NCBI GenBank assembly: GCA_030737835.1
Contig: CM060855.1
Location: forward strand, 15,195,438-15,259,437
DNA length: 64,000 nucleotides
Direction: 5' to 3'
Origin: Acorus gramineus
Lineage: Eukaryota > Streptophyta > Magnoliopsida > Acorales > Acoraceae
Both the position numbers and the translations under genes were made by a program. Each line of letters begins with the position of its first letter. Position 1 is the first letter of the stretch. The notes under the pieces are model-generated. The model was not told the DNA's origin and ran no database searches. It saw only the letters and a list, made by a program, of their open reading frames with translations. This document shows positions 7,697 through 56,426 of the stretch, piece by piece.

Positions 7697-9491
7697 TATT
7701 TGCGTATATATATTATGAAAAAAATGTAAAAATACATGCATTCAATTCATTCGTGCAAGTATTTCATTTGTTATAAAAGTATGTACTTCATTAGACGGGT
7801 ATGAATATTTCAAAAATATTCAAATCGTGTACAGTCTATAAGTATGCAACAATACCTAAGTATAACATTTATTTATTTACCCCCCGTTTGGGGTGGAACA
7901 TAAGCATGGAATAGAGAAGAATACAAGAGAATAACAAAAAAAAGTTGTTTGTTTTGCTAGAATAAACCCTGATAGCTATGTCTGGATAAGCTAGGATAAA
8001 GCCTGATAACTATTCTCAGAAAATGCTAGAATTGCTTATCAGGGCTTATCTATACTAATGGATAAAAATATCCTTCTTTGTCATTTTAAAATTTTTATCT
8101 AACCTATTACTCTCTGCACACATTCTAAAAACTGGCACATCTATCGTATCACACACACATCTCTCATACTTATTCTCAAACACAAATAATTTATGCACGG
8201 GTACAATTGTCATTTAAAAAGTCATAAACTCTTATCCATCTCTTATCTACCACTTATCCTCCTTACTTTATCCAAGATGAACAAAACAACAAAAATATCA
8301 TTTTTATGTTTTCCAATGAGAATAACAGAAAATTTAATCAAATAAAAATTTATTTATTCAGCATAGATTGTTATATATCCCAATATAATTATCAAATGTG
8401 AATAACCCTATGTCACACCCCAGACGGGAGGTTAAAAAATTAGGATAGTGTTTGGAAATATATTAACGTGCATTCTAATACCCAAGTGGTCACAGCTTTG
8501 AAAGAAATCATTAAGATAAAATTTATGTCATAAACAATAATAAAAAAAAGTTTCCATGAATTCAAAAAACTCTTTTGGATGTGTTTTGAAACACAGGACC
8601 GGCTCTTTTATTAGACAACTTAGGTAATTGCCCAAGGCCCCCAGATGCACAAAGGCCCCTAAATTTTTTTTTATTTATAAGTATGTATAGATGTTGACCA
8701 ATAATTGCTTAATACATTATTTTTTATTTATAAGTAGGCACAAAGGTCATTTTGATATTGTTAAAAAGTAACCAATTGAAAATTGATAATATTTTATGAT
8801 ACTTAAAAATAGAAAAAAAAAATACATGACCAATAGGAATTAAAAGAATTTTTAAATCCCAAAAAAATAAGAATATGAAACGGCAAGGCCTAAAAAAGTG
8901 TCGCTATTATTTTTCACACTCTCTTCTTTTATTCTTTTCAATCTATTTCTTTTTTATTTAAAAAAAAAACCTTCTTCTCACTCTAGAAATTTTGCGTCTC
9001 AAAAAACTAGAAGAATGATTTTTAAATACAAAATTAATAATTTAAAATTAAAATAATTATTATTTAATTGTCTTAGGCCTAATATATCCAGCCGAATGAA
9101 ACACATTCAAATAAAGTATATTTTTTTTGTCAAATTAGAATCATTAAATGTGACTCAAACTTTTAAACTTTGCAATCCAGAGGCGGTCCACTAGTAGACT
9201 GCAAAAGGGACCAGTCATAACATTTTTTATTATAAAAAAGAATGTTGATACGCTCAGTTCCGTTTGCAATCCAAAAATGGTTTATCAATAGACTATACAC
9301 TTCACTAACAGGGTTTATATTGATTTTTTTAAGGTAAAAGTAATCTTGATAACATATGAAAGAGGTTACAAAATCCGAAACTTGCCCCAAAAGTATAGCA
9401 AGGAAAGGGAGAAGAAGAAGGGGAAAAAGGGGGATACATATAAAGAAGATAAAACAAGGGAATGCATACACACAAGCAGTGTAGATTCATC
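7697..9491. other. AT-rich intergenic stretch with probable decayed repeats
   Basis: No gene was seen. At 7880 the sequence CCCCGTTTGGGGTGGAAC begins a MITE-like stretch with several GATAA/TTATC words, running to about 8330, without a clear far end. At about 8597-9090 GGACCGGCT and inverted AGCCG, with AGGCCCC words inside, may be a worn non-autonomous element. Both calls are weak. Confidence 0.3.
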
Positions 9492-10326
9492 TAGTGTTCT
9501 GAAATGCGGTATGCGGTTTGCGTGCGACTGAGGTACTGCACAGAATATATGCGTTATGCGGGAGTATATGCGATTTTGTAATTTTTTATTAATGAAAAGA
9601 ATTTTGTAACAATGACAAGATAAATTTTAAAGATATCACAATTAGACCTATTTTTTATAATATTTTTAGATACACATTATAACATTAATAATTCAAAGAA
9701 CCGTTAATAATTTTATCGTAAACTGATTATATAAACTGTATCAGTTTATCACATTAGCATAAACAAAACATGGCTAAGGTTGGTCTCTCTCTCAACCCAT
9801 ATCACTTTTTCATAATAAAAAAATCCATGTGGCACTTCTTCATTCATATAAAAAATACACATGTCAGTCCCTTCATGTGTCACTTCTTCTCTTAATAAAA
9901 AAAACCACATCACTAGCTACTTCTTCTTCTCCATTAATAAAACATGACAGAGAGTGAGAATTTTGACGTGGATGGAGAGACTGAGAGAGCCACTGTTCGG
10001 GAAGAAGAAGCTGTCGAAGAAGAAGGTGTCTTCGATGAAGGTCAAAGAGCGTCATGTGTCGTCCGACGTGACGACATCAATGAAGAAGAAGAACTAAGGA
10101 AGGGGTCTCGACTCTCGATTGCATAATGTCGTCGGACGTTCGATGCGTCTATATTTGCTCTCTTCTTCTTTAATGCTGTCTGTTCGACCAAACCTTAAGC
10201 GGACGCATATGCGGAATCCGGCTGCATATGCGGGCCACCCGATTCCATGGAAGGCGCTTCGGTCTCCCGACCGAACCGCTCGTGCGGCCGCATATGCGGC
10301 CGCACGGGTCGCCTTTCAAAACACTG
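9492..10326. mobile_element. non-autonomous hAT element with perfect 8-bp target duplication
   Basis: Ends are TAGTGTTCTGAAATGCGG (left) and CAGTGTTTTGAAAGGCGA (right end, read inverted), an imperfect terminal inverted repeat. The 8-bp sequence GATTCATC stands directly on both sides (9484-9491 and 10327-10334). Length 835 bp. The right subterminal region holds repeated GCATATGCGG palindromes, as is usual for hAT. There is no transposase frame; open frames inside (for example 9944-10126) show no known domain. Confidence 0.9.
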
Positions 10327-10399
10327 GATTCATCCCATCCCAATCCCCTAGCCAAAAAACAAAGATGACAAGGCCGCCGCCTCATGCTTACTAACTCAG

Positions 10400-10810
10400 C
10401 CCAGGTCTATTTGGAAGGAGTCCCCTCTAAGTTAGAAGAAACAAGCCCCCGCCAACCCACACCCCCAATCGGCAAGAAAATGAAGCGCATCATCCCAAAC
10501 ATTTTCCATGTAAGAACATTGGCCTTGAAATAGCTTCTTGTTCTTGCACAACCAAATGGCTCACAAAGCTGCCGGAATCATGATTTTCATCGCCTGAGAC
10601 TACGTCCGCGAGTCTCCAAGGCGCTTGGGGGGCAACATTTGATCCCAAAGTTCTTCCTTGTTCTGAAACCGCAATGCCACCCCCGACGACATGTGCAACA
10701 TATCCCAAAATGTGATCAGTGTTGGGCAACAACATAATAAGTGATTTACTATCTCCTCATGCGCATCACACAACTCGCAAACTGTTGGAGACTCCGACCT
10801 CCATTTGGCA
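10400..10810 (-). pseudogene. LINE reverse-transcriptase C-terminal (zf-RVT) remnant
   Basis: Minus-strand translation reads CELCDAHEEIVNHLLCCCPTL, then TFWDMLHMSSGVALRF, then IPAALWAICLCKN and ENVWDDALHFLADWG. This Cys-Cys-His-Cys zinc-knuckle layout with the following W-rich block is the zf-RVT region at the C-terminus of plant non-LTR retrotransposon ORF2. The frame is broken by a stop near 10610 and no upstream polymerase domain is present, so it is a dead 5'-truncated copy. It lies directly next to the hAT element that ends at 10326. Confidence 0.75.
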
Positions 10811-11256
10811 TGGTAAGACCTTGTAAGAGGAGATGATTGTTAGATGATTTTTAAGATTGATATCACGAGCAGGTGACACATGTGTAGTTGCAGATCACCT
10901 GCCAGTACTGATTTGGGGTGATTGTTGTATTTCACGTTGGGTGATTTATAATATATATTAGTCTCGGGTCAGGTTGACCCATTAACATGTTTAAGCCATA
11001 TAAAGAGAGATCAATCAATTTCTTAAAGGTCTACATGGATTCATTTGTTTTTTTTTTTTAATAGAGTCTAATGTACTATAAATAGTTATTCACTATTTAG
11101 ATTTTTTAAAATTTGGAATATGGGTAGATTATTATGCTTTTACGTGAAGCCAAAATGTTGTACAAATATTTCAAATACTTAAAATTTTAAATGATTATTC
11201 AGTATTTAGTTATAAATATTGGGTTGGATCATGAGTGTTGGGTTGAATCATAAATA

Positions 11257-11775
11257 AAAAAATCCAAATAACCCCCTGACTTTCCCTAAAGTCCATATAA
11301 CCCCCTATAAACACCTATGTAAATCCAAATAACCCATTGAATTAAACTTATTTATGTTGACAGATGATGAATATTATGTGAATATTCCGTTTAGTTAATC
11401 CTAACTGAAAACATAGTATACCAAAAACCTCTTAAAATTTGTCAAAAATGTGGAAAATCTTTTATAAATGACGATTTTATCCATCCGAATAGTTTATAAA
11501 CTCTATGTGGTGAGGCGAAATCATCATTTATAGAGGCTTTTTGTGCAATTTTTAACACATTGTAAGAGATTTTTGATATACTATCTTTTCAACCAGGGTT
11601 AACCAAATAGAATATTTATAAAATGTTCCTCATCTTTCAAAGAAAATTTAACTCAGGAGGCTATTTGAATTTATATTAATTATTTCAGGGGGGTCATATG
11701 CATTTTAGGAAAAATCATGAAGTTTTATGGATTTCAAACAGTTTACAGGGGGTTATATGCATTTTTTAGCTTTAT
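11257..11775. mobile_element. Mutator-like MITE, older copy of the 24506-25020 family
   Basis: The ends carry AATCCAAATAACCCCCT on the left and the inverted form AGGGGGTTATATGCATTTTT on the right. Inside are the same ordered segments (CCTGACTTT, ATTCCGTTTAGTTAA, CATTTATAGAGG) as in the element at 24506-25020. Edges here are less sharp and no clean target duplication was found. No coding content. Confidence 0.65.
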
Positions 11776-12211
11776 CTAATAAGTGCTTGTATTTAATATT
11801 TATTGTCACGTGAAACGGCAAGTTTTATTGATTTTGGATATAAATGCTGTGGACTGAGTCAATGCGTGGAAGGAAAAATGCATAAGCAATATAATTAAGG
11901 CCACTTTACTTTCATTCTCAATTTTTTTTTTTTTTTTTTTGCAACATCTAATTTTTTTTTTTCAAAATCCTTCGTTTTTATATATATATTCCAATTAAAA
12001 AAATTTCCTACTTATAGTCAGTGGCCGAGCCATGAATTTCTAAAATGGAGGCTTTACACGAAATTCAAAAAGATCCATTGTTTATATCTCTTACATAAAA
12101 TTAGAGAAAAATCTTCATAGGTCCCTGAAATATTTGTAAAATCACAGAAAGTCCCTATAAAACTCAAAAATCGTCATAGGTCCTTTTAAAATGATATGGT
12201 TAATAGATTTA

Positions 12212-12440
12212 GGGTGCGTTTGGTTACGCGATTGCGCTGATTGCGATTACAGGAAGCTGCGTTTATAATCGTGCAACCAAACAGTTTTACTGTAGCAGCT
12301 TCCTGCACACAGATTTCAGACAAATAGTGCACAAAAGCTGCGATTTCAAAAAGCTGAGAAAATGAGCTTTCTGCATAATCAGTTTTACAATCGCAGATTC
12401 CTGCATAATCAGTTTTGTAATCGCGCAACCAAACGCACCC
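12212..12440. mobile_element. Tourist-type (PIF/Harbinger) MITE inside the Pack-MULE
   Basis: The 229-bp element begins GGGTGCGTTTGGTTACGCGA and ends in the inverted form (TCGCGCAACCAAACGCACCC). TTA flanks it on both sides (12209-12211 and 12441-12443), the 3-bp target duplication of PIF/Harbinger. It lies just inside the left terminal repeat of the Pack-MULE and so is younger than it. A diverged relative may begin at 23781 (GGCTGCGTTTGATTGCACGA). Confidence 0.88.
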
Positions 12441-12593
12441 TTAGTCCTCCGGTTAATTTTACGTCAGTTTGTGAGGAATATTAGTTGAATATTCTATAAC
12501 AGTAACAATGTTTAGCAAAACTATATTAAAATAAGTCTCTATAAACTTTGTAAAATCGTATTTAGTCCTTTAAATTGACAAGAATGCCCCTAT

Positions 12594-13420
12594 CACTTTC
12601 CAATGCTCCCAACGAGGCGCACTCCGAGAGCAGGAGCATCACCATCCTGTTCGACCTCATGTCCTCCTCCATCTAACCTGGTTCATGAGGTAGTACAACA
12701 TGAATGATGCGTGCCCGACCGAATCAAGCCGGGCCTTCCCTTCCACGCTGCAGAGCAGGCGCATGACGTCCAGGTTGTGAAGCAACCGCGGGAGCTCTCT
12801 CAGGAATATTTGTAGGCACGCGGCGAACAACAAATGCGCGGTCTCGTCCAACCAGTACTCGACGAATGCGATCGCGTCTTTGATGGTGGTGACGAGAGAC
12901 GCCAATCGCTCGTCGCACGCACATTTCAGGCATTCGCAGTAGAACCGGTCCGCGAAGGGGAGGAGCTCTAAAAGGGTGTCCACGGAGAAGGAATTGATGG
13001 AGCCCGTCCGACTGAATGACTCGATCGGTCGCATTGTGTTGATGGAGATGCCAATTTGGGTGAAATCGACTGTCTCCCGCCACGACTCCGGGAACCCGCC
13101 AAAAAGCATCGTCTTTATAGGTTTGGAGAGGGAGGAGAATAGGAGATGTTGGCGTGCACGCAATTCACCTCCCCGGACCTGACGCGGAAGACAACGTCGC
13201 CGGGGATTGGTTCAGAGTCTCTGTCGAATGCGACGATTGGGTCGTCGTTTCGGCAGCACAGGCAGGGGCCGAGTGGGTTGGGTCGGGGCCGGGGTGGAGG
13301 GAGGAGTAGGGGAACTCTAGGGGGAGGCCGGGGCAGTCGGAGGAGGAGGAGGGTCGCAGCGCTTGAGGCGGAGAGGACGAGCTTGTCGTGTACAGAGGAA
13401 GCGCAGATGCGAGTGGAGCA
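12594..13420 (-). pseudogene. ETO1/EOL-like BTB protein fragment captured by the Pack-MULE
   Basis: The minus strand encodes the BTB region of the ETHYLENE OVERPRODUCER 1 family, which are CUL3 adaptors that send type-2 ACC synthases for degradation. Matches in order: VHDKLVLSA (about 13400-13370), DVVFRVRSGEVNCVHA, then SKPIKTMLFGGFPESWRET, GISINTMRPIESFSRT, LLELLPFADRFYCE, AACLQIFLRELPRLLHN and SVGHASFMLYYL. After about 12675 the match goes on in another frame as MEEDMRSNRMVMLLL. There are frame changes near 13150 and near 12670; the longest open frame (12657-13163) codes for 168 aa. The TPR part of the family, several hundred residues, is absent. It is much richer in GC than the DNA around it. 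Probably dead, though a short BTB peptide or an antisense RNA cannot be ruled out. Confidence 0.88.
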
Positions 13421-14573
13421 GAGGGCGATTAATGATCTCAAATGTCTCGAAGGAGATGATCTCAAGAAGAAGATATTTGAGAAAGAAATTTCATTGTGTT
13501 AAAGTGAGTGAATGAGAGGGTATTTTAGTAATGTTATATGTGTGGTTAATGTTAACCATGTGTTTGGTTACTTGGTGTTTGGGTAGAGGCTTATTCAACA
13601 ATTTATTAAAAACACAGGGACCTGTAAGATTTTTGAGTTTTACAAGGGCTTTTTGTGATTTTACAAAGATTTTAGGGACCTGTAACCTATGACGATTTTT
13701 CTCATAAAATTAATTTTAAACAAAGACATTCATAGAAATCTTTCATAACATTTTAAAGAATCATCCATTCATGTGTTCATTCCTGGATATGTCAAATTTT
13801 TTAATTTCACAGGATTTATCTGAACTAGATTATTGAAAAAGAGAACTTCTCATTCTCAACTAGAATTATCAAACTGACTCTTAATAGTATACATATGATG
13901 CATAATAAAGGTTAATCTATAAAATACAAGAAATGGATAACAATGTATGAGTGAACAACATATACAAAGTGTATAATTGTGTGTAAAAAGTATTTCACGG
14001 GGTAAGCGATAAAAAGGGAGATGGAAGAACTTAGAAAAAATATAATCACTGCTGAAGGGTGTTTTCATATACTAAAAAGTTTGAGGGACCTTAACAAGAT
14101 AAAAAGTTTTTTTTTAAATATTTAAATTTATTTTCCTAAGAATTTTTGTTATGATTCAATAAATATATCCATATTAAACTCAGATACTCAACTGTTATTG
14201 TTTGTTTACCATAAAAAAAGTATTTTTACACGATTTTTATTTCAACCCACTTCCAGCCATATATGCGTCGATAGAAAATTATAAAAGCATATACTCACTG
14301 TAGCGAGGTTTATGTTTCGATAATTTTTTTTTACATTATCTATAAATGCATTCATACAATTCATTAAAGTACATGCTTCATTTTTTAAAAAACATGTACC
14401 TCATTAGATGAGTTATACTATTTTTAAAAAAATTTAAAATACTTGTATGCTGGATTTAATGCTAGAAAAAAAAGTAAATGCAACATTATCCAAAAAAATA
14501 TATATATATACTTAAGAAAGGGCTTGAGCCCCACCTTTGTCATGCATTACATGGCTCGGCCCCTGTGCTTAGT

Positions 14574-23360: not shown

Positions 23361-25491
23361 CTATGAGTATTGGCAATGAAGTCTTGAATGTCTCCTACGA
23401 TATTCTTTGTTGTCTGTAGATGTCTCCACCACTTCCTTTGCAAATCTCACTCTCTTCTTTTTCACAGTACATTTTGCAGTGCCTGAAACATGAACCAATA
23501 TGAAAAAGGGAAATGATTAGCTAGGTAACTTAATATATGATAAATATTTAATCAAATGCAATAAAAATATGGCAATCCATGCTTTCAAATCCCATCCAAA
23601 ATTTATAGAATGACACATCTAAAACTTGGCTTAAAATGTGTTGGGTTCAAAATTGCTCAAATTTTTTTGTCACAAAGACACAGTTAGAACCGTGTGAAAA
23701 ATGCAAGATTCTTGAATATGCAATAATTTTTTAAAAAATATAAAAGAAATATACACACGCATTTGTAAGTGGACTAAAAGATTTTGGCTGCGTTTGATTG
23801 CACGATTGCAAAATTAACTGCATCTCTACAGCTTCTGGAAAACTCAAGTTTTGAACATTTTTTACACAATCTGTCTGTAACTTTGGCCATAGCTTTTCTG
23901 TTTGGAAACAGATTTGGAAAAAATAGTTTCCTGCAACTAGGGGTGTTAAACGAGTCTAATGAACCGAGCTTTGACATGTTCAAGCTTGGCTTATTTATAA
24001 ACGAGTCGAGCGAGTCGAGCTGAGCCGAGCTCACGAGCCTCAACAAGCCTAGTGTTTTTCTTCATTTTAGGGTTTTTAGGGGTTGAAATAAAATTTTAGC
24101 CTAAATGAGCTAAGTTCATCAACCTAAACGAGCATAATTTGTATTGATTTAATGTTCTAATTTTATAAAGGAGTTGAATCAAGCTTCAACTAAGTTTTTT
24201 ATAACACAAGCGAGTCAACTTTGAACACAAAATGAAGCTCGATTCAGGTCCCGAGCCTAACCGAGCTTTAAAAATCGTTCAAACTCACTCATTTGTATAA
24301 TTAAATGAGCTAGAAAGTCAGAACGAGCTGAAACCAAGCCAAGCCTGAGCGACTTGGGTTCGTGTACTAGCTCTACCTGCAACTCCAAAAGTTGCCTCAT
24401 TGTGTTTTCAAACGGGTCATTCAGCAAGTATACACATGAAGAATCCAAAATTTGAGAAAACTTAAATAAATGGAGGCAAATAAAAATACACAGTGTATAA
24501 AATTAGGGAAAAATCCATTCAACCCCCTAAAATCTGACTGAAATCCATATAACCCCTTGACTTTTTTTAAAATCCATATAACCCCCTAAAAACACTTAGT
24601 AAATCCACATAACCTCCTTAATAAACTTTTCGTTAATAGATGATGAATATTTTGTAAATATTTCATTTGGTTAACCTTGACTGAAATCATAATATACTAA
24701 AAAACTACTACAATGTGTTAAAAATGTAAAAAATCATATAAAAATGACGATTTTATCATTTTTGGATATATTATAAAACCCTATCCGGAAGAGTAAAATC
24801 GTCATTTACATAAGATTTTTCACATTTTTAACACATTGTAGGGTTTTTTTTTATATATACAGTGTTTTTTATTAGGGTTAATCAAACATAATATTCACAA
24901 AATATTCAGGGGGTTATTTGGATTTACTAGGTGTTTTCAGGGGGCCATTTGGATTTTAAAAACAGTCAGGAGGTTATATTAATTTCAATCAGTTTACAGG
25001 GGGTTATATGGATTTTTCCCAGAAAATTAATTAACACAAAAAAGAAAAAATACCAATTAAATATTGAATTGAATATAATTAAAGCATGACCAGGGATTAA
25101 AAAAAACCAATTAAAGCAAAAAAAAATACTGAATTAATTAATCAACCAAATACCCACATTGATTGATACCCAAATCGGAAGCCAACAAATAAATAAAAAA
25201 TGAAGAACCAATCAGACCAAGCATAATGAACCAAAGAATCGCAAAATTAAAAAAAAAAACCCATAAAAAACCAACATATGGGTTTCAATCAATCAACACC
25301 TACATTTTTAGAAAAACAGCAAACCAAGATTAAAAAAAAATTAAAAAAAGAAAGAAAAACATACCGAGCTCCGATTGAACTTTCTTCATGAAATCCGAAA
25401 CGAGACGCTTATGAACTTGAAGAGCAACCAATGCTACGAATCCCGAAACCCCCATCACCGCCATTAATCCCACCCCACCCGAGCTTTCCAT
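23361..25491 (-). CDS. short single-pass membrane protein, copy B, two exons
   Basis: Exon 1 is 25491-25365 and exon 2 is 23482-23361, GT-AG intron in phase 1, 82 aa. Exon 1 encodes the same 42 residues as copy A (MESSGGVGLMAVMG start, one hydrophobic segment, HKRLVSDFMKK). Exon 2 has diverged but keeps the pattern KKKRVRFAKEVVETSTDNKEY followed by RRRHSRL. Identical exon 1 with a changed but in-frame exon 2 points to purifying selection or to gene conversion. The 1.9-kb intron has grown by a hAT element (23938-24375) and a Mutator-like MITE (24506-25020), both absent from copy A. Function unknown. Confidence 0.8.
23938..24375. mobile_element. non-autonomous hAT element with perfect 8-bp target duplication
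   Basis: The element starts TAGGGGTGTTAAACGAG and its other end, read inward, is TAGAGCTAGTACACGAA. CCTGCAAC stands at 23930-23937 and at 24376-24383. The sides are GAGCTCG/CGAGCC-rich, the mark of this common plant family. It lies in the intron of copy B and interrupts an older MITE-like stretch that begins near 23781. A second copy, inverted, lies at 45322-45742. Confidence 0.9.
24506..25020. mobile_element. Mutator-like MITE, 515 bp, near-perfect 9-bp target duplication
   Basis: The ends are GGGAAAAATCCATTCAACCC and the inverted GGGAAAAATCCATATAACCC. ATAAAATTA (24497-24505) and AGAAAATTA (25021-25029) match at 8 of 9 bases. Terminal repeats of about 100 bp carry the words TCCATATAACCCC and CTGACTG. 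No coding content. It shares family with 11257-11775 and lies in the intron of copy B. Confidence 0.85.
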
Positions 25492-34766: not shown

Positions 34767-37700
34767 TGTTATATATGTGTCACTTTTAACCTGCTGGTAA
34801 CCGTTAGAGCGTTCTGGCAGTTTTTCGTTTTTTTTCGGTTTTCGATCGGAACCGCTTATTTCTGGACTGTTAGCTATCGTCTTGAGTTAGAGGACTCCGA
34901 TTGAAAATCTAACTGCATATTTGGTGTCCTGGTGCCATTTTAGGCCTCTCACGAAAATTTCATCGAATTCCGGCATCGTTTCCAAAAATTTCGCAGTTCC
35001 GGGGCGTATCCGGGTTTTTAAGTCGCACGCTATATATAAGTGAGAGCTAAAATTCCGAGTTACTATTCATTATCCCTACCAAATCCCTCTCTCTCCCCCC
35101 TCTCTCTTTTTCTCACTTTCAAGCCCCCTAGACCCCTCAAACCAAGAAACCTAAAGCACGGGAAGTGTAGATCGGGTCCCGATCTACGCTCCGGTGTCTT
35201 CAAATCCAAGTTCCGGCGATCCTAGCCTCCCCGACCTCCCCTCTTTGTCCTCTGATTTGGCCCGTTTCGAAGGCCAAGATAGATCGGGGCGTGAGAAGGC
35301 CGTTGGGAAAGGTTTCGGCGCGCGGAGAGCGTCCGGACTTCGCTTCCTCCCCTTGGTAAGGCCTTTTTCTTCACTTTTCTTGCATAGATGTATGCTAGGA
35401 GGTGGATTTTGGGGTTGGGTGGAGGTCGGCGGCTGTGGGTGGCCGTCGGAGGGCGGTGGAGGTGGTCGGAGGTCGGTGGGTGGTGGTTTGGGTGGTCTCG
35501 GGCAGCAGGTGGTGGTGCTCGGGCTGGTGGGAGATGTCCTCGGGCGCAAGCAGCAGCGGCAGCGGCCCAGGCAGCGCACATGCTGGGCGCGCGCGGGCAT
35601 GCGCGCGTGCGTGCGCGGGTGTGCGTGCGCGCGGCGTGCGCGCGGGTGTGCGCGGGTCTGGTGCGGGGTGCTGGTCGTGCTGGGCGCGCGGGACGGGCTG
35701 GCAGTGCTGGCGTGCTCGGGCTGGGGGCCTCAGGCAGCAGGCAGCGAGCGCGAGGAGCTGGTGCGCGAGGTGCTGGGCGGCTAGTGCTGGGCGGGCTGGT
35801 GCGCGAGGAGCTGGTCGCGCGGGTGCTAGGCGTGCGAGCAGGGGTGGTGCGTGCGCGAGGTGGTGGCTGAGGCAGCGGAGGTGCGTGCGCGAGGTGGTGG
35901 CCGAGTGCAGGGTGCGCGCGGGGGTACGCGCGAGGCGAGGCGCGGCTCGGCGAGGTGGCGGAGGTGCGCGCGGGGTGCGCGCGAGGCGAGGCGCTGCGCG
36001 CGGGGGCGCGCAGGGTGCTCGCGGGCGGCGCGAGGCGTGCGGGGTGCGTGGGCTGAGGCGCGGCGGTGCGCCCGGGCGGTCGGGTGGCCGTGCGGGTGGG
36101 TGCCGGCCGTGCGGGGGGGGGGGGGGGGTTGCCGGAGTACTCGGGCTAGCGTGCGTGCGGGTCGTATGCACGTTTGCCCGAGTGTGGGGTGTTTAGTTGT
36201 GGGTTTATGTATGATCTTGTGTATTTTGTGGTATTTATGGATTTTAACTCACCATATTGAATGTCTGTCTTGCAGATCTAGACGGACGGTCGCGCGACGA
36301 CCCAGATACGGTGAGTGGGACAATCCAACCCAGTTGAGAGGCGTTATACGCACTTGGGCGTATACCGACCTCTCCTGGGGCACCGTGGATGAATATTAAC
36401 CTGCAGTAATATGTAATCCATGCTTGTATGATTTAATTGTAGAGTGCATGCTACCCTAGACTTTGCATGTTAGGGACTTGCACCCTTAGGATGTGTATGA
36501 GCCATGCACCATGTCTCCTGTTTCATGTTAGGAAACCTCGACCTATGTATGCGTCCTACTAGTTTATTTATTAAATTAAATGCTAGTGTATGTTAAATCG
36601 CATGCCTTAGGTAATATTATCGGGAGGAGCCTTGCGAGGTCAACATTGAGACCCGTGTTAGGGTACTCCGTGTTCCTTGTTTGGTTGTCGGGATGTCCTG
36701 TATCGGGACCTCATGCTGCCCTCCCAAGGTTTCTAGTCCCAATAATATTATAAGTAATGTTGTATGTTTGGTATGATTATTAGCATGAGTAGTGAATATT
36801 ATAGGGGAGGGGCCTTGCGAGGACAGCGGTGAGACCCGGGTTAGGGTACTCCGTGTTCCTTGTTTGGTTGTCGGGGTACCCTGTATCGGGAACTCACGCC
36901 GCCCTCCCGAGTTTCTTTCCCCCAATGATATTCCAACACTGCTTTTGATTGTACTTGTTTCCCCGCATCTTGGATATGCGCCCTGGAGGAACTCTGAAGA
37001 GTTCATGACATTTGAGTTGTAGAGATGTGTAGTTAGTGGATCCGAGTGGATCACGTGCGTATGGATGGGCCGTTCTGTCCCCCTCGTTGGATCCGGTAGA
37101 GGCTGCCCCCAGCGTTAGAAAGGTCGTCCTTCGGAGGACCCACATCAGTAGGCGCCTCCCGATATTTGTGACGGACTGTGCTGAAGTTGTGGGTGGAGAC
37201 CAAGCGACCTACGGAGTGGAGGAGAGACTACCGGTGGACTAAGGGTGACCAACAGCCTAGTCAGTCCCAAAATCCTATGTCACCTTTGGAAAGGTGAGGG
37301 TGAGGGTGTAGTGGGTTGGCGATGAGCGACCCGCTGGTTTTGTTTGTGAATGATTGTAAGTCCCAATATCCTGAGTCCCTTGTTGAGGGGTAAGGGTGAG
37401 GGTATGATCTGGGTTATGAAAATTGTGGATTAGAATGGATTAATGTTTATGTTGTTCCTGCCCCTTGGAGGCGGGACGAATAGCTGGATTAATATGTTGT
37501 GGTCAATATTGTCTGTGATGCATGGGTTGTGCCGTTCACTGAGCGTGTGGCTCACCCCTCGCATATGTTTTTCCCCAGTTGCCACTGAGCCTGAGCTGGA
37601 GCCGGAGCAGCAGTTGGAGCTTTCCGAGGGATTCCTTCAGTAGCGGAGCAGCGCTACGTCCGCGAGTGCCAGAGGCTATCAGCATCCCTTTTCTTGGCTG

Positions 37701-38009: not shown

Positions 38010-39647
38010 TTTAAACAAGGAAAACAGTTTAATTTATTCCTAAGATTGTGGATATGGTCATCTTTTCAGCGGCGGCATTCTCCACCACAAGCAGAGGTGA
38101 GATCTCATCATCCTCCACTGTTCCAATCTCATCATCCACTGCTTCTGCTTCCGATTCTCCTCCCATCTTCGCCTCCTGAAGCTCAATCACACGGATCTCG
38201 TGCGCGTCTCTCGCTTCTTCTCCGTCTACGATTCCATCGACCGTGTCTGCAGAGGACCTTATCCTCGCTAGAACACGGATCCTCGTCTGTAGTTTTAGTT
38301 ATATAGAGGTAATATAATATATTTATTTTTCTCTATGAGAAAATCGTTGACCATGCCATGATGCGATTAAAAAATTCAGGTTTGATGTAAAATGTTATAA
38401 ATATAGATGATCACTGTAATATTTTTTTTAATTATTTTATATAGTCACCCTATTGATAAAATCAAATCATTTTAAAAATCATTTTTAATATTGTGTTTAT
38501 TGTTTATAAATAAAAAAAACATTGTATAAAATCATTAATCCCTATAATTTACGATGAACATATTCGTAGCAGTCCCGAAATTTTAATTTGAAGAAGTTTG
38601 AAAAACTGATTTGTTCTTTATCGAGTTGGATCTCTCTTCCGGATCAGGTTTGTCAATTGTTTTTTTTTTTTTTATCTTATTGAATGAAAGTCACATCGAA
38701 TTTGAAATTAAATTTTTGATGATCAAATATTCAATCTATGTTACATGTTTCAATTCAAAAAATAATTTTTTTTTATGTTTTGATCACTATTTCACACTTT
38801 TTTTTTATATTTGTTTCGTTATAATTTCATAAATGTAATTTTGATATTGTTACATTTAATTGTTACTGGTTCATGTGATGTTTATATTAGACTCCCGAAC
38901 TCGGATATTCATTTACACAATTTTTGTTACATTCATAAATGTAACACTCTGAAATGTAACATTATCTCATGTTGTGCATTTCTTTTAACAATGCAAATAG
39001 AAATGACGTATAAATGTAACAGTGAAGTACATACTTTTACAGAAGATTCTGATACATTTTCTTTGGAAGGCAGTGCATTAGAAATTGAAATAGATAATTT
39101 TAAATAGTAAATGTAACTGTTTGACATTTAGGTAAATATAATTGTTTGTTCCATCTATATAAATGTAACAGTTTTTATATAAATGTAACAAATCGTTGTG
39201 AGAGATGTAAACATTTAAGAAATGTATTTGTAACTACCAATATAAAATGTAACTGTTTCATATGTTAACTATATGTGTTTTTTATTTAAATTTGAATACA
39301 ATAACTACCTAGAGAAAATGAGTCGTTTGAAGGATTTTAATGAAAACAATTTCGGTAATTTTTGGTGTAATCTAGGTTCAATTATAATTTAGGTAATGAT
39401 TTCAAAATTCAAAATTTGAAATAGGTAAATGGATTTTATGATTTACATGGAAGAGTCATAACCAAATAGAGAAAATGGGGGGATTTGGGTTAATAAGACA
39501 AATTTTTAATGAATGATAAATTTGTATTTTGTCATTTTACTATTTTTTGAAAAAGTCAACAAACCAAAAAACCAACCAATAAAATGATATGATGACACTT
39601 CATGGGGCTTGTGAGTGGGACTTATATATATATATATATATATTACA
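38010..39647. other. intergenic, possible exon fragment and a clustered short motif
   Basis: The stretch at 38052-38300 is GC-richer than its surroundings and has coding-like composition (RVSRFFSVYDSIDRVCR in one frame, MVIFSAAAFSTTSRGEI in another), but the frames do not join and I know no family for it; a captured or decayed first exon is possible. The octamer AAATGTAA, mostly followed by CA or CT, occurs at least seven times between about 38940 and 39260. Nothing else recognised. Confidence 0.35.
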
Positions 39648-42600
39648 ACGGAGCTCTAAAGCGGACGCCCTCTTTATATTAGTTTGCGGACGATCAAAGG
39701 TCCATTAAATATGTGGCTGTGATCAAGGTAAAATAAATTTAATTTTTACCAAAACTAACTGCTCCCCAACCATATTTAGACTAACCTAGATTAAACAATG
39801 ACATGAAACCCTCCCCTCTCATTCACTCTCTCTGTCTCTCTCGCCTGTGTTTACGAAATCACCGCTCGACGCCGCCCACCCTCCCAACGCCGATAGCCCT
39901 CCCCGACGGTCCCTCCCGATGCCGATAACTCTTCCCGATCGATAGATCACGCAAAGGTTTGGTGTAACACTCCATGGTGACTGGTATTGAAAATCTAGGG
40001 CTTTTTTTTCTTTCTAATCTAGGGCTTTTTTAGGGGTGGATTATGAACATGAACATTGCATGTCAAGAAAATATAGTTTGTGATTTGATTTTTTTTTCAT
40101 ATAAGAGTTTTTGTCATTTGAAGCTTTTTTTGGAGACATATTTTAAAAACTCAGATATTAGGAATGTTATGGAGCTTGCTTTAAATTTTTTTTTTTTTTA
40201 GAATATTATGATTCATTGTATTAGATTTTTGAAGGTGTACTCTGAGCCCTGCTACAAGGCTAATAACAGTCATGATATTATAGACATCAACTCTGTTTTC
40301 TGGTTCTCACTAAGCCACTTTTAATCACCTAATTCAACAAATAAAACATGAACATGGCATGTGAAAAAAAATGTTGGACTTTTTGTTTTTTTTTTTTTTG
40401 TTCTGGTTTGAATGTTTTAAGGAGACATGTAATTCATGCGTTAATTTTATTGATGAGTTTACTTGAGTTTTGTCATTTGAAAATGTCTCTGTTTATTTTG
40501 GTTTGAAGCTTTTTTTATATAAGAGTTTGGAGCTTATTCTTTTTTTTTTTTTTTTGGCTTTTTAGTTTATACTAAAATGGATAATCTGGACTTGGGAGTG
40601 GAGAATGAATATAGCCAACATGAAGAAGAGTTAAATTCAAATTCTTGCAATGGTGTTTCATCCTTAGGTAATTGTTATACTCTTTTATTTCAATGTTTCT
40701 ATCTCACTAGTATTTGATTGGAAAGCTAAAGAAAGCTAATCCACTACCATGCTTTTTAAATTTTTAATGTAGGTTTATCCCAAGAAAGTTAAAGAAAGAA
40801 CTCGACACTTTGGGAAACAAATCCATCAATAGATTTTTACTTGTGTGGCATTTTCTTTGTAGTACGTAATTTTCCTTTGTAGCATGTATAATTTTCCTGT
40901 TAAAATGATGTTGGCACAATCTTTTTGTGGCATTGACAATGTCATGTGTAATTTTTTTTGTACTTCACTGCAAAAGTCATCTGAATGCAAAGAAAAAACC
41001 TTGGGGAGAACCATTTAACTAGTGCAGTTTTCTTTATAGATGTTTTCAAATCCCTTGTAGCATGTATTATCTGAGAGCAGAACTCCTGGTGAATTTTAAT
41101 ATCATGCCTGTTTGCCTATGCAAAAAGCAAACAAAGTTTTTTTTTATTGGTTTAGTTTTGATAAGGTTTTAAAAACAAAGTTATTATGAACATACTATTA
41201 AATACAGCTACATATAGCAAGTCTAGAACATGCTGAATGATAGGCTCAGGTAGAACTGTTAATCCAGTTTTCTTTCATACAACAGTGCTCCATATAATTA
41301 ATTCTTCAGCGAACCTGTTCATTTGGACATACTTATCCAAATCCAGGGAGACCAAACAATGCCAATGTAAAATACGAAGCTCAATGAGCAAATTCATGTA
41401 CCATTATTTACAATAAATTGAGAAGTTTAGGTTCCATAAGCGGCAGAGAAAATGTTAAATAAAAAAAGGCCCCCAAAGTGTTTTAAATCGGCATTAACAG
41501 TTCAGCACCACTATATATTCTCACTGTCTATATTTAAGAGAAATAGACTTTCGTAATTCAAACACTATTTATTCATACTTTGTACTGGACGGTTGGCCGG
41601 GATTTCTGTAATTGAATCACCGCAATCATACATGTATCAAGGGAAGATGAGAAAGAAAGGCTATCATACAAGAGCAAGCCAGCACCAATATTTTTTGAAT
41701 CCAGATCAAGTTACATAGTATCAGTTTTAATGCCGTAGAAAATAGCACAAAAGACAGCAAGCAAGAAAATAAAAAATAGCTTCATGCTCCATCATGCTCT
41801 TTAATTACTCTTTTGTTGACTTCATTGCAGCTATGGAGGTCTCTACATCTGTTAAACGCTTCAAGCCTACTACGAACTGGTTCGCTGAAGAAACTTCCAT
41901 CTCGTTTGTTGAGGAAGCCTCTAATTTCGTATATTCTCCAAAATTAAAAGGATCACCTATTCAAAAAAATTGCACTATTTTTCCATACATGTATATAATA
42001 CAATTTATATGGGTTTTTCTCTAATTCAGATATTTTAATGGCCGCCTTGCACTGACATTTGCAAAAAATGTTCTTGAAACTTAATTCACTAGCCTTATTC
42101 GACGAATGTTTTTTGCTCGACGATGCCATGTTGCACTGTAAATCATAAAAACTCAAGTAAACTCATCAATAAAATTAACGCATGAATTACATGTCTCCTT
42201 AAAACATTCAAACCAGAACAAAAAAAAAACAAAAAGTCCAACATTTTTTTTCACATGCCATGTTCATGTTTTATTTGTTGAAATAGGTGATTAAAAGTGG
42301 CTTAGTGAGAACCAAACAACAGAGTTGATGTCTATAATATCATGACTGTTATTAGCCTTGTAGCAGGGCTCAGAGTACACCTTCAAAAATCTAATACAAT
42401 GAATCATAATATTCTAAAAAAAAAAAAATTAAAACAAGCTCCATAACATTCCTAATATTTGAGTTTTTAAAATATGTCTCCAAAAACTTCAAATGACAAA
42501 CACTAGATGAAAAAAAAAATCAAATCACAAACTATATTTTCTTGACATGCAATGTTCATGTTCATAATCCACCCCTAAAAAAGCCCTAGATTAGAAAGAA

Positions 42601-42960
42601 AAAAAAGCCCTAGATTTTCAATACCAGTCACCATGGAGTGTTACACCAAACCTTTGCGTGATCTATCGATCGGGAAGGGTTACCGGCATCGGGAGGGACC
42701 GTCGGGGAGGGCTATCGGTGTTGGGAGGGTGGGCGGCGTCAGGCGGTGATTTCGTAAACACGGGCGAGAGAGACAGAGAGAGTGAATGAGAGGGGAGGGT
42801 TTCATGTCATTGTTTAACCTAGGTTAGTCTAACTATGGTTGGGGAGTAGTTAGTTTTGGTGGAAATTAAATTTATTTTATCTTGATCACAACCACATATT
42901 CGGTGGACCTTTGATCGTCCGCAAACTAATATAAAGCGGGCGTCCGCTTTAGAGCCCCGT
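39648..42960. mobile_element. DNA transposon with about 810-bp terminal inverted repeats
   Basis: The outer ends are CGGAGCTCTAAAGCGGACGC (left) and CGGGGCTCTAAAGCGGACGC (right, inverted). Arms run about 39648-40460 and 42150-42960 and stay alignable throughout, for example GGTTTGGTGTAACACTCCAT, GCTACAAGGCTAATAACAGT and the blocks around CATGAACATGGCATG. The central 1.7 kb holds a small exon-like frame (about 40578-40670, MDNLDLGVENEYSQHEEE followed by a GT) and MEVSTSVKRFKPTTNWF at about 41833. Neither matches a transposase I can name. Long arms suggest a Mutator-like or foldback-type element. The target site was TA repeat, so no duplication can be read. Confidence 0.8.
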
Positions 42961-43821
42961 TTATATATATTATATATCGTTTGTTTCTCCCAAAAGGGCT
43001 TCGAAAAGGCAGCTCTACCCTCACCATGCAGTTTACTGTCCCCACCTAATCAACTGATCCCACAAGCCAAACCCCCAATTAATACCTAATCCCACCCCTT
43101 TTTATATACCAATCAAAAAAACTTCTTAGCCCACCACCCATCAACTTCTCTCAGTTCTTTTCATTCTCTCTCTCCCTTCTCTCCTCTCCTCTCTCCACCA
43201 CCATCATCCTGTGGAGGCTGCCGCCGCACACGACGATGAGCACTCGATGGAGGCGCAACTCGAGCGATCGCCGCGTACGACGATGAGTACTCCCACCCCT
43301 TTTTATACCTATGAAGAGAAATAAAGGGATTTTGATTGAATTTATAGAAGGGTATGTGGAATTTGAGTTTGTATTTAAGGAGGAGATTGTGACGAAGAAA
43401 GAAAGAGAGATTGAATGCTTGTTTAATTGGCTGATTTTGTGTTTTCATTCTAAAAGAAAAGAAAAATGAAGGGATTGGAAGAGTTCGAAGGATGGATTTT
43501 CGGTTCTCTTTGTTCATCTACACAATTAATTAATTGTTTTGACTAATTTATTGACACAGTGTTTGTATTGAAGGGATAGGAGGTGATAGAGAAATAAATG
43601 TGATGTATTTCATTTTTATGTTTCCGTTTGACAGACTCAGTGTCGACATACATATCCCAGATTGACATATCCACTGTCGAATGTTTTTAAAATCTGTCGA
43701 CAAAATGACTGTCGAAGTTTTTAAACATGGGTTGACAGGAACATTGTCGATTGTTTTCTATAACGCTCGACAGGGATACTGTCGAATGGGTGAGGTTAAT
43801 GTTTTTCAAAAAACCTATGTA

Positions 43822-48268: not shown

Positions 48269-51200
48269 TCATATCTCCTTCCATATCTTTCCCGTGACTC
48301 TCAGTTTCAGCTCGTTCCCGTCACCCCCGGAGAAGTAGAGTGCGAGGCTGCGGGGGATGATGAGGCCATCGTGGCTGTCTCGTATGGTCCGGTGGTGGGA
48401 GCGGATGCTCCTCGGCACACCCTGCCAAGTTTGCTTCCGCCCGTTGCCTCCGACTTCAAGGGAGTATCCGAATCTCCTCGCCTCGGATTCCTCGCCCATG
48501 AACCGGAGGAAGGCCATGTAGACCGGTGTGTTTCCCAGGGGGAAGGCTTCAAAGTGCAGGCAGAAGTAGTGGCCAAAGCAGTTGAAAAGCTGAAAAAGAT
48601 TTATCCAGAGGAAGATAAGATCAGTTTGTAGGAGATTGTACATAAAGCATCCAATATATGAAGAAGGAAGATATATGAACAAAGACAAAGGAAAGCAAAT
48701 CTGTTACAAAATCATCAAAAGAGAAGTAGTAATATTATTTATAACAATTTATCAGTTGAGGTATCCCAATGAAAAATGTAGTGGTTCTAGCGGAAGAGTG
48801 ACAGTGCTGATGTTTATTCTTGGAGGGTAAATTTGTTCTGTGAATCACCAATATGTAAACTGCCCTTATCCTGCCTATGTCTTCTCTCAAGAGTAAGTGT
48901 GATAAATGAGGGAATTCAGCTGGTTTGGATGGTTCATTCAACAGTCTGGAACAATTATATGAAGCTGATAAGAAACTTAAGAAAAAGGGGGCAAAATTTG
49001 ACAGCCAAGGTGTCCCAAATATAATTCTTGTGGGGTGTTGGGTTATTTGGCTGATGAGGAATGAGGCTATTTTCAAATTGAAAATATATGGGAGAGTACT
49101 GCTATGTTTTTAAAGGATTGGGCGGTCAATTGTGCAGGGTTTGGGAGGGTGTGCCTAGAGGAGGGTAAACAAATGTCCGTTGAATAGAAGTTTCTTGACA
49201 GTAGATTACTCATCTATTGCTTTTTATATTTCTGTTTTTGTTTCTTTTTATTTGTACTGGAACTGTACACCAATTTTCTAATGAATTTGGTGGTATTAGT
49301 TTTACCAGTTTCTCAGAGAGAGAAATTGATGCTGCAATTTTCTTTGGACTTTTCAAGTAGCTAATTCAAGTAATTTTTTCCCTAAAGAGTTTGAAGTAGT
49401 AAAGTATTGGTGCAAGTATTGAAAAAAAGACATAAGGGAAAAATGGAAGAGTGGAAGAGTGGACGCTCATGTTTAAGTCTTGGAGAAATGGTCAGGGAAA
49501 AGTTCATAAGGTTGACAAATGACAACTAATATTAAAAACCTATTGAAAACATGAAATGAATCCTATAAGTGAACTAGTTTGACAACTGCTCAAAAATATT
49601 TGAGACTGTACGAGGCTGATGACAGGATAACACAAACGAAACATGATAAAATACGGGGACAGATACAATAATGCTATTTTTATATGGTGCATTTTATTAA
49701 GGAATGGGGTGTCTCCTGTGCCAGCGCAAGAAGGATTCTTGTTGTGGAGGGTAACTTGTGTGGTTTGTTGCCTTACCTAGAGTCCCAATAGATTCTCTTC
49801 TACTAGTGGCTCTTAGGTGGGAGGTTTTGCTTTTTATGTTTTACTTGTATACTTTGGGCAATCCCTTTCTTTGGAAAATAATTAAGGCTTAATGCCTACC
49901 TTTTCATTTCAAAAAAAAAAAAAAAATGCTATTTCTATATGGATATTGTTGCCATCAACGAAGAATGACAACTATGTAGAAGCTCAATAATCTGAAAGAG
50001 TGACAAGACATACTAACCGTTAACGTCCAAGATATACTATCAACCGAACATGGATCCTGCTTCACATATCGATGATTGAACGAAGAGCCCACTTGAAGAT
50101 CAACTTTATGACTCTCCTTCAGATGAGCCAAGAGAGGCGGAATGACCCCTTTAAAAGTACAATCAGATCCCGGATGCGGGCAGGTGTAAGGCCTAAAAGC
50201 ACACTGCATCTCATGCTTCTTCTTGCTGTAGTAAGGGAACATCTCCTCACAGCCAAGATAATGGTATGAGCACGGCAAATGCAAAGAAAGGGCAAGCTTT
50301 TCAAGTGCCAGACATCTTATACTTCCAATGTCCTTCCTGCAGACTGGGCATTTGTTGTTGACTTTGGATTTGCAATCAAAGCAAAGGGTGTGCCCACTGG
50401 GACACTGCAAAAAAAGGAAAAGGAAATTGATGGGTAAGAGGAGTATGAGAAAGCTACATTTAATTATAGCTTGCAACTTGGATAAGAAATCAACACACAA
50501 ATTAAGAATATGGTAGATCAATCAATTGGCAGAGTGGGTAGCAACTATCTTGATGCAAGAAAAGAAATTTTAATTGCCTTCATAAAGTAACCAGCACATG
50601 ACTTCTTAATAGTTTTGAATGATGATAAGGCCCAGGTCCCAGCCTAGGTGGCACTTGTCAAACTATGAAGAGCTAGAATTTCACATGGAGAACGGCTGTA
50701 TCATTCTCTGACCTCTGTAAAGTACATAAAATCTTGTCATATGCTGATGGCAGGCCCCATTACACATCCATGTAGAACAACAACACATGGCTACACATTG
50801 AACACCTTCCAATGAAATTAAGAAACGGTAACACATTGAACAACCTCAGGGATAAACATTAAACAATTTAGTAGCCTGCATATGTCTGACAGATTATTTG
50901 TAACTCTTCTTACATAAATATATCGTAAGAAAATAAATTTCACTGCCTAATGAAAAAACCACATATATTCAACAAAACACCCATCCATAAACTCTTTTAC
51001 TTTTAAAAAATGATGCTAAACGTGAAGTGAGTCAAGAAAAATTTCTGGTAATGTTTGCAACATATGGAAAATTTTATAAAAAGATTTATTAAAATATAAT
51101 ATGCAATTACATAATTTGTCGAAATTAAACATTTGTAGGATTTCCAAAATGGGTCTTAAAATAAATGAGATAAAGAAATAGGATGGCCATGTGACAATGA

Positions 51201-54469: not shown

Positions 54470-56426
54470 TTTATGTCATATTTAGTGGGATAAGCATTAT
54501 TTACGAAGAAGAATCACATTATTTACATTCAACTCCCTACAAGGCTTACAAGCATTCTTGAATTTACATAACATCATTCTACAAAGGGAGATAAAAAAAA
54601 ATGCCTGACAAATTATAGGGGGTTTTACATAATTAGTTGAAGGGGATAAGTATAAATAACCAAGATCATAACGATCAAAACTGTCCTCAAAACATTCCCA
54701 AAAAAGTCCTTACTCAACCGGCTCCTGTGGCTTTTGTTTCTCAAACAGATGAATCTTTTTTTTTCCATTCATCTTGCCAACCCAGCTCATACGACATGGG
54801 CTTCCTCTCACTCATCAGTTCTTCCGAATAAATATTTTCCATGCGAAATTAGCTGCCCATGAATCCAAGTTGGTGAAGGATGAAAGCCAGAATCAGCATG
54901 CAAATCGCAAGGATCATGCCGGGTCTTCCCAACAGCCAGTTCTTCATTCTCCTCGCATGGTGGGCTGCTTTCTGTGCCCTCTCTGCCCATAACATCTGTA
55001 TAACGAGAAAAGACTATCAGAACTGGAACGTATTAATCAAACTGCATCGACAAATTGAAGCTTTGAACACATGGAGGTTTCATTTGGTGTTAGTTTGACA
55101 AAATCTGAACATCCGTTAAACATCCATCAGGTTTCCAAATCGGAAAAGCTTTTGTTTCTGTGATATCTGTTGCAATGTTGATTGAGTCTTCAAGTCAGAG
55201 ATAAGCTTTCGTTGTCACATAGAATAATGATAAACTTAGGAGATAGATTTTTATGGGAGTTCTATAGTTAGTCATATCGAAATATTTTCATCGCACACTA
55301 CTAAAATTCACCAAGGTATAAGAGGAAATACTGACATCAGACATCTTGCAGAAATCATGAAATCTATTATTCATGACAGGCCTGTATAACAGCATCAACT
55401 TTGTTTAAATATATCCGAGATTGTCTCAATAACTTTTCTTTTTATGTCACATCCTAAGTGGGATAAGCATTATTTACATTCAACTCCCTACGAAGAAGAA
55501 TCACATTATTTACATTCAACTCCCTACAAGGCTTACAAGCATTCTTGAATTTACATAACATCATTCTACAGAGGGAGATAAAAAAATGCCTGACAAATTA
55601 TAGGGGGTTTTACATAATTAGTTGAAGGGGATAAGTATAAATAACCAAGCTCATAACGATCAAAACTGTCCTCAAAACATTCCCAAAAAAGTCCTTACTC
55701 AACCGGCTCCTGTGGCTTTTGTTTTCCAAACAGATGAATCTTTTTTTTTCATTCATCTTGCCAACCCAGCTCATACAACATGGGCTTCCTCTCACTCATC
55801 AGTTCTTCTGAATAAATATTTTCCATGCGAAAATTAGCTGCCCATGAATCCTAGTTGGTGAAGGATGAAAGCCAGAATCAGCATGCAAATCGCAAGGATC
55901 ATGCCGGGTCTTCCCAACAGCCAGTTCTTCATTCTCCTCGCATGGTGGGCTGCTTTCTGTGCCCTCTCTGCCCATAACATCTGTATAATGAGAAAAGACT
56001 ATCAGAACTGGAACGTATTAATCAAACTGCATCGACAAATTGAAGCTTTGAACACATGGAGGTTTCATTTGGTGTTAGTTTGACAAAATCTGAACATCCG
56101 TTAAACATCCATCAGGTTTCCAAATCGGAAAAGCTTTTGTTTCTGTGATATCTGTTGCAATGTTGATTGAGTCTTCAAGTCAGAGATAAGCTTTCGTTGT
56201 CACATAGAATAATGATAAACTTAGGAGATAGATTTTTATGGGAGTTCTATAGTTAGTCATATCGAAATATTTTCATCGCACACTACTAAAATTCACCAAG
56301 GTATAAGAGGAAATACTGACATCAGACATCTTGCAGAAATCATGAAATCTAATTTTCATGACAGGCCTGTATAACAGCATCAACTTTGTTTAAATATATC
56401 CGAGATTGTCTCAATAACTTTTCTTT
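54470..56426. repeat. direct tandem duplication, two units of about 0.97 and 0.99 kb
   Basis: 54470-55440 and 55441-56426 are about 98 percent alike by eye. The second unit has an extra short repeat of CATTATTTACATTCAACTCC near its start. The junction shows TTTATGTCA at the start of both units. Each unit holds the complete last coding exon of the TPR7-like gene with its acceptor and stop. Near-identity implies a recent event. Confidence 0.93.
54849..54995 (-). CDS. distal copy of the last exon of the TPR7-like gene
   Basis: This 147-bp exon, 985 bp beyond the proximal copy, encodes the same 48 residues including the membrane anchor ([17 protein letters not shown]) and ends in TAA. The acceptor (TTATACAG then ATG) is kept. 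The only differences from the proximal exon are silent or lie outside it. Whether it is ever spliced in place of the proximal exon is unknown; if so, the protein would be unchanged and only the 3' untranslated region would differ. Confidence 0.8.

Follow-up and report, generated by a model that had tools for sequence, protein, structure and literature searches.

A Pack-MULE in Acorus gramineus carrying a captured exon 1 fragment of an ETO1/EOL-like gene

Pack-MULEs, Mutator-like elements (MULEs) that carry pieces of host genes, are abundant, and passages in two papers put their number in rice at over 3,000 (PMC4858842, PMC13317346). The MULEs of rice and its relatives favour GC-rich sequences, as stated in a part of the first (PMC4858842). 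The captured fragments are usually pseudogenes, while some are expressed or have signs of selection, according to a section of the second (PMC13317346). The terminal inverted repeats (TIRs) are typically 100-500 bp long in excerpts from PMC3310237 and PMC4858842. Our literature search pairing Pack-MULE with ETO1 returned nothing, and the search pairing Pack-MULE with BTB returned no title naming ETO1.

We analyzed a stretch of 64,000 nucleotides, here called the window (C9:15195438-15259437), of the Acorus gramineus assembly (398,581,865 bases in 137 contigs, designated C with a number). An earlier note made from its letters had proposed a Pack-MULE at 12104-13703 with a captured BTB region of the ETO1/EOL family. 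This identification stands, as seen from the ends, the target site duplication, the captured fragment and a separate candidate parent. The segment is a genuine non-autonomous MULE with a captured ETO1/EOL-like piece. It resembles the Pack-MULEs of rice and other plants in having TIRs, a 9-bp duplication, a GC-rich host gene piece, no transposase found inside, a separate intact candidate parent and several copies. It differs from them by TIRs that measure 80-86 bp by BLAST, below the typical range, and by a MITE nested in one arm.

Structure of the element and its family

The features of the element are as follows (positions in the window; basis in parentheses).

12095-12103, no strand: left target site duplication ATAAAATTA (direct reading and script)
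12104-12183, plus strand: left TIR (BLAST against the right end; at least 40 match rows in the genome)
12209-12211 and 12441-12443, no strand: TTA duplication of the MITE (single TTA at the empty site in copies C8 and C4a)
12212-12440, no strand: nested MITE with ends GGGTGCGTTTGG and CCAAACGCACCC (other genome copies; empty site in sister copies)
12441-12611, plus strand: left MULE subterminal sequence (similarity to relatives without the ETO1 piece)
12617-13425, minus strand: captured ETO1/EOL-like exon 1 fragment, the BTB region and the stretch before it (alignment to the C5 gene)
12657-13163, minus strand: 168-aa open frame with a TTG start, within the captured fragment (list of open reading frames)
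13426-13475, no strand: junction stretch of 50 bp (gap between the parent match and the match of the relatives)
13476-13617, plus strand: right MULE subterminal sequence (similarity to relatives L053, L055 and L056)
13618-13703, minus strand: right TIR (BLAST against the left end)
13704-13712, no strand: right target site duplication ATAAAATTA (direct reading and script)

The inverted ends, estimated beforehand at about 85 bp, were found by BLAST to share 80.5% identity in an alignment of 87 columns that has two gaps, of 7 and 1. A looser local alignment covered about 100 bases with a score of 116, which exceeded all of 300 random comparisons at the same spacing in the window (maximum 106, mean 31). 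The 9-bp duplication is perfect, as the earlier note had read it; shortening the element by one base would allow an alternative 10-base duplication, CATAAAATTA. The interior was also correctly described as GC-rich, with a GC content of 0.59 at 12594-13430 compared to 0.28 and 0.26 in the 1-kb flanks. It had further been called coding DNA. Here descent from the ETO1 family holds, but the frame is broken several times and the stop-free length, at chance level, does not speak for coding.

Outside the fragment and the MITE the interior is MULE sequence. The left subterminal sequence was found to be 79-85% identical to five relatives, L054, L055, L056 and L057 (to 12611) and L053 (to 12601), all without the ETO1 piece, and the right one, from 13476, is 82-83% identical to L053, L055 and L056. 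Only 12612-12616 and the junction stretch were left unassigned to TIR, MULE subterminal sequence, MITE or ETO1 piece. The junction stretch matched neither the parent nor relatives L053-L057; two weaker relatives extend into it, from 13449 and 13464. No transposase was found inside the element: no place of the MULE transposase domain PF10551 falls here among the best 150 of 1162 candidates, and of the open frames the one at 12660-13211 was scanned against Pfam. A search of the whole window against Rfam at gathering thresholds gave no match.

The nested MITE, 229 bp of the left arm, had been overlooked in the earlier note. It has at least 32 other places in the genome at 91-94% identity and one at 77% (best 40 of 2203 candidates). 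We take it to be probably PIF/Harbinger-like, a family name drawn from the pattern of ends and duplication; its short inverted ends, TTA duplication and many copies are like those of that group. The MITE is present in copy C79 and had no match in copies C8, C4a and C4b. In C8 and C4a the sequence runs through the empty site with a single TTA, so the MITE most likely arrived after their split from the window lineage. A MITE copy 92% identical to this one lies at another position in a C5 relative with the same MULE ends (L057:4183-4415).

The ends recur through the genome. At least 40 rows match the left 103 bases (best 40 of 58 candidates), and at least 47 match the right 273 bases (best 40 of 77 candidates). 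Six elements with both ends are among the left-end rows, and by our own count about 34 places remain. Relatives with paired ends and no ETO1 piece were found on C6 (5.7 kb), twice on C10 (about 5.0 kb) and, shorter, on C2 and C5. The two C10 relatives are 98% alike, flanks included, so one arose by duplication of the segment that holds the other. For the shorter C2 and C5 relatives the right ends were matched in part only, and no convincing target duplication was found at them. The C6 element has a perfect 9-bp duplication, TATTAATAA, the ends GGGAAAAATCGTCA and TGACAATTTTTCCC, and a 365-aa frame with the DNA-binding domain of the MuDR family transposase (PF03108, 45.6 bits compared to a cut-off of 25); this frame had no catalytic core match. 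The inverted ends are thus those of a MULE family present elsewhere, one member of which carries a MuDR transposase domain. The host genome is rich in MULE transposase domains, with at least 150 places for PF10551, all 150 scored above the Pfam cut-off (best 150 of 1162 candidates). None of these 150 lies, by eye, between the five listed end pairs, so that they revealed no complete autonomous partner with the same ends.

Other features were seen in the window. Related repeats at 11258-11766 and 24600-25017, 77-80% alike in pieces and with motifs like CCAAATAACCCCCTGA and CAGGGGGTTAT, form a dispersed repeat adjoining the MULE. Long inverted arms at 39638-40471 and 42148-42970 (pieces of 460, 212, 86 and 71 nt, 95-99% complementary, about 1.7 kb between them) are perhaps another inverted-repeat element. 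A GC island of about 0.67, where most sequence is at 0.3, lies at 35155-36196 and has long stop-free frames on both strands, low-complexity Ala/Arg/Gly translations and no Rfam match. The minus strand at 49958-50521 holds an exon of a SINA-type E3 ubiquitin ligase (Sina_ZnF 92.2 bits, Sina_RING 32.1 bits). Several pieces of a direct repeat at 54502-56130 (spacing about 985) are 96-99% identical, which marks a recent tandem duplication.

Candidate parent gene and copies of the fragment

ETO1/EOL proteins are BTB-TPR adaptors of type-2 ACC synthase, and they normally restrain ethylene production. The claimed capture of about 0.8 kb from such a gene, read on the minus strand, is borne out by a match of 12617-13425 to an intact gene on contig C5 (L013:4886-5705; 85.1% identity over 833 columns, 37 of them gap columns). 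This gene we regard as the candidate parent on the basis of the alignment. The match falls wholly within its exon 1 and covers part of it only; DNA- and RNA-mediated capture are therefore indistinguishable. A complete ETO1-like gene was not found between the flanks of the window element.

Searching the genome with the C5 exon as protein yielded 21 match rows (28 of 28 candidates scored), 16 of them pieces of element copies and five on two genes. One is the C5 gene, represented by the query (643 aa, free of stops) and a single row from a later exon. The other family gene is at C7:5099697-5101418, 49% identical and with two later rows; its locus (L059) had no exact match to any 21-mer of the window fragment. 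In the C5 gene a stop-free frame of 673 aa has a GT resembling a splice donor close to its end, and BTB-like and TPR-like matches lie in this frame and in later exon-size frames. By Pfam the BTB part is weak (18.2 bits, under the cut-off of 20.5, E 0.0028), and TPR_1 scored 28.7 bits compared to a cut-off of 27.8, in the third frame. Compared to an approximate sequence of an Arabidopsis ETO1 segment, the C5 gene was 54.6% identical over 328 columns and the window fragment 52% over 155; the name ETO1/EOL draws in part on this tentative kinship. The BTB-then-TPR order of the C5 gene is that given for ETO1 in a part of PMC1199607. The window element, unlike the family, has only a part of exon 1, broken in frame and with no TPR part.

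The fragment was found at about six separate insertion loci, with a pair on C2 counted once. The copies are as follows (with percent identity).

C79: 97%; shares the flanks of the window
C8: 93%
C4, 12.78 Mb: 90%
C4, 23.15 Mb: 91%; 946 bp of other sequence as a gap near the right end
C2 pair: 79%; duplicated in inverted orientation over about 3.9 kb (97%)
C9x (C9, 10.00 Mb): partial, in pieces of 87% and 77%

The search for further copies, as the earlier note had suggested, found the same ends and fragment at other loci, on C8 and twice on C4. In C8 and both C4 copies (C4a and C4b) the fragment is joined to MULE ends and subterminal sequence as in the window element, but without the flanks of the latter, with 2 kb compared on each side. 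Of the window, C79, C8, C4a and C4b only the window and C8 have a perfect 9-bp duplication; that of C8 is its own, TTAAAAAAA, and low in complexity. The duplications of C4a and C4b are imprecise (one mismatch of 11, within A/T runs). The C2 pair and C9x share right-side MULE sequence with the window; at the C2 pair we found no left end. This pair, loci L014 and L015 (C2:4.90 Mb and C2:4.73 Mb), holds a version of the ETO1-like fragment that is broken differently.

C79, whose duplication has one mismatch, was rejected as a separate insertion. Its flanks match those of the window on both sides, and the two stretches compared are collinear with the window at about 8-15.7 kb and about 53.7-56.4 kb, so that C79 represents either an alternate haplotype or a long duplicate. 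Within the first stretch the matching pieces of C79 skip from about 9061 to about 11512 and are separated there by about 15 bp; C79 seems to lack about 2.4 kb, possibly a haplotype-specific insertion (window 9061-11512).

Order of events and the open frame

Nine sequences were aligned: the parent, the window, C79, C8, C4a, C4b, the two C2 copies (C2a and C2b) and C9x. Relative to the parent, all five near-full copies (window, C79, C8, C4a and C4b) have deletions of 10, 4 (10 in C4b) and 3 bases and insertions of 5 and 8 bases. Four of these five shared indels shift the frame, and the five copies end at a common 3' end of the fragment. Near the 3' edge a change from TCG to TAG is plain in C79, C8, C4a and C4b, and the window has a one-base deletion beside the same TAG. 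The C2 pair also has the 3-base deletion but neither the 5-base nor the 8-base insertion, and it carries private lesions. C9x, in which the region of these insertions is missing, has its own 5-base insertion and stops and extends further to the 3' side of the gene. In the tree the five near-full copies group with a support of 1.000; the parent and C9x are unseparated (support 0.165). Since the indels are common to the five copies, breakage of the ETO1 frame preceded the spread of this subfamily.

The best explanation, to which we give a probability of roughly 0.93, is that the ancestor of a Pack-MULE captured a piece of exon 1 of the C5 gene, that this piece broke and was then amplified, and that the element is a passenger-carrying transposon only. 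The ancestor would have taken up at least about 0.8 kb of internal exon 1 sequence, probably in one event. A single capture followed by deletions is the simplest reading of the alignment; more than one capture is possible, given the other breakpoints and lesions of the C2 pair and C9x. The fragment would then have gained the frame-breaking indels and the stop codon, and the broken version would have come to at least four loci (the window locus on C9, C8, and C4 twice), presumably by transposase acting in trans. Insertion of the Harbinger-like MITE into the window copy appears to have come later. A functional BTB protein is most likely not produced from the ETO1 piece; an effect on the parent, if there is one, would presumably go via small RNAs over short identical stretches. 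As a broken host gene copy, the fragment might instead be an ordinary duplicated ETO1-like pseudogene that lies between unrelated repeats by chance. The same composite on C8, with its own 9-bp duplication, and twice on C4, each time without the window flanks, makes this reading scarcely credible.

The 168-aa minus-strand frame at 12657-13163 is present as described. A further reading is that it represents a young functional gene, with a truncated BTB protein under selection that perhaps competes with ETO1/EOL for CUL3. Its length does not bear on this: the longest minus-strand stop-free run, 184 codons, was equalled in 37 of 500 dinucleotide shuffles and is therefore no evidence of coding. Nei-Gojobori ratios were 0.30-0.51 among the four loci (window, C8, C4a and C4b; C79 was excluded as the same locus as the window), but the silent sites are GC-rich (third-position GC 0.77). 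What favours the gene is a permutation test within base and CpG classes. For the parental frame of the open region (about 13139-12675) we counted 29 replacement and 26 silent unique changes among the four loci, compared to 38.1 and 16.9 expected (P 0.0026; 0.0012 in a first version counting every copy's changes). This deficit has no parallel in the other two frames (ratios 1.04 and 2.76) or in the frame-broken upstream region (1.08), and six of the seven changes on the branch shared by C8, C4a and C4b are at third positions. P was 0.0016-0.040 on leaving out one copy at a time and 0.0090 with C79 included; of the two halves the first gave 0.015, but the second alone gave 0.12. The direct contrast between the open and the frame-broken upstream region (29:26 vs 25:13) was also non-significant (Fisher P 0.29). 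Over a model with omega nominally set to 1, a codon model (IQ-TREE) improved the fit by 13.0 log units in the open region, yet the shorter broken region also gave an improvement of 7.9; mutation bias therefore contributes, and the model is uninformative on selection. The copies themselves speak against a gene. C4a and C8 have in-frame stops, seven of nine parent-polarised single changes in the window lineage are at codon positions 1-2, and the window and C79 differ over the fragment by eight replacement changes and no silent one. The BTB region is cut on its 5' side by a frameshift, Pfam recognised no family and no BTB in the window frame, and the best match to a solved structure was gigaxonin (E 0.045). 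We consider a young gene very unlikely. There is no good evidence for a protein from the open frame, and the reduced amino-acid change is a weak hint worth retesting. It is likewise very improbable that a BTB core of about 150 codons, broken at both edges, became a new open frame, was maintained by selection in source elements and, dispersed with them, served as a mobile truncated CUL3-adaptor decoy in ethylene control; the window copy would then be in decay.

Possible effect on the parent and meaning

The passenger-only reading leaves room for an effect through RNA. Small RNAs or antisense transcripts made from the element might reduce expression of the C5 parent. A TIR flanks the fragment on each side, with the fragment in antisense orientation to the left one, and a part of PMC3310237 states that the interiors of Pack-MULEs can be transcribed from promoters in the TIRs; captured sequences can be siRNA reservoirs in maize, as stated in a section of PMC13317346. 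Of the 21-mers of the window fragment 26/863 are exact in the exon 1 frame of the parent, and for C8 50/860. Against this stand the 85% identity and a longest exact run of only 29 bases (12999-13027), which allow a few targeting small RNAs but no long perfect duplex. Nor does the CpG observed/expected ratio of 1.04 in the captured part point to strong loss through methylation there, although 34 of the 109 changes among the copies are CpG transitions. We regard such an RNA effect as unlikely. The suggestion that a transcribed copy acts on the ethylene pathway looks weak, since the lesions precede the amplification and so few 21-mers are exact. Were small RNAs from the element to act on the parent, the element would amount to a mobile modifier of ethylene control.

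Altogether, the window element is a clear but ordinary case of a well-known phenomenon. Its interest is much lower than first proposed, because Pack-MULEs are abundant and the passenger was broken before it spread. It offers a worked example and also a warning not to take an open frame in captured GC-rich DNA as evidence of a gene. With a parent candidate, sister copies, a relative with a transposase domain and an empty site for the MITE, the order of capture, breakage, amplification and later insertion can be read.
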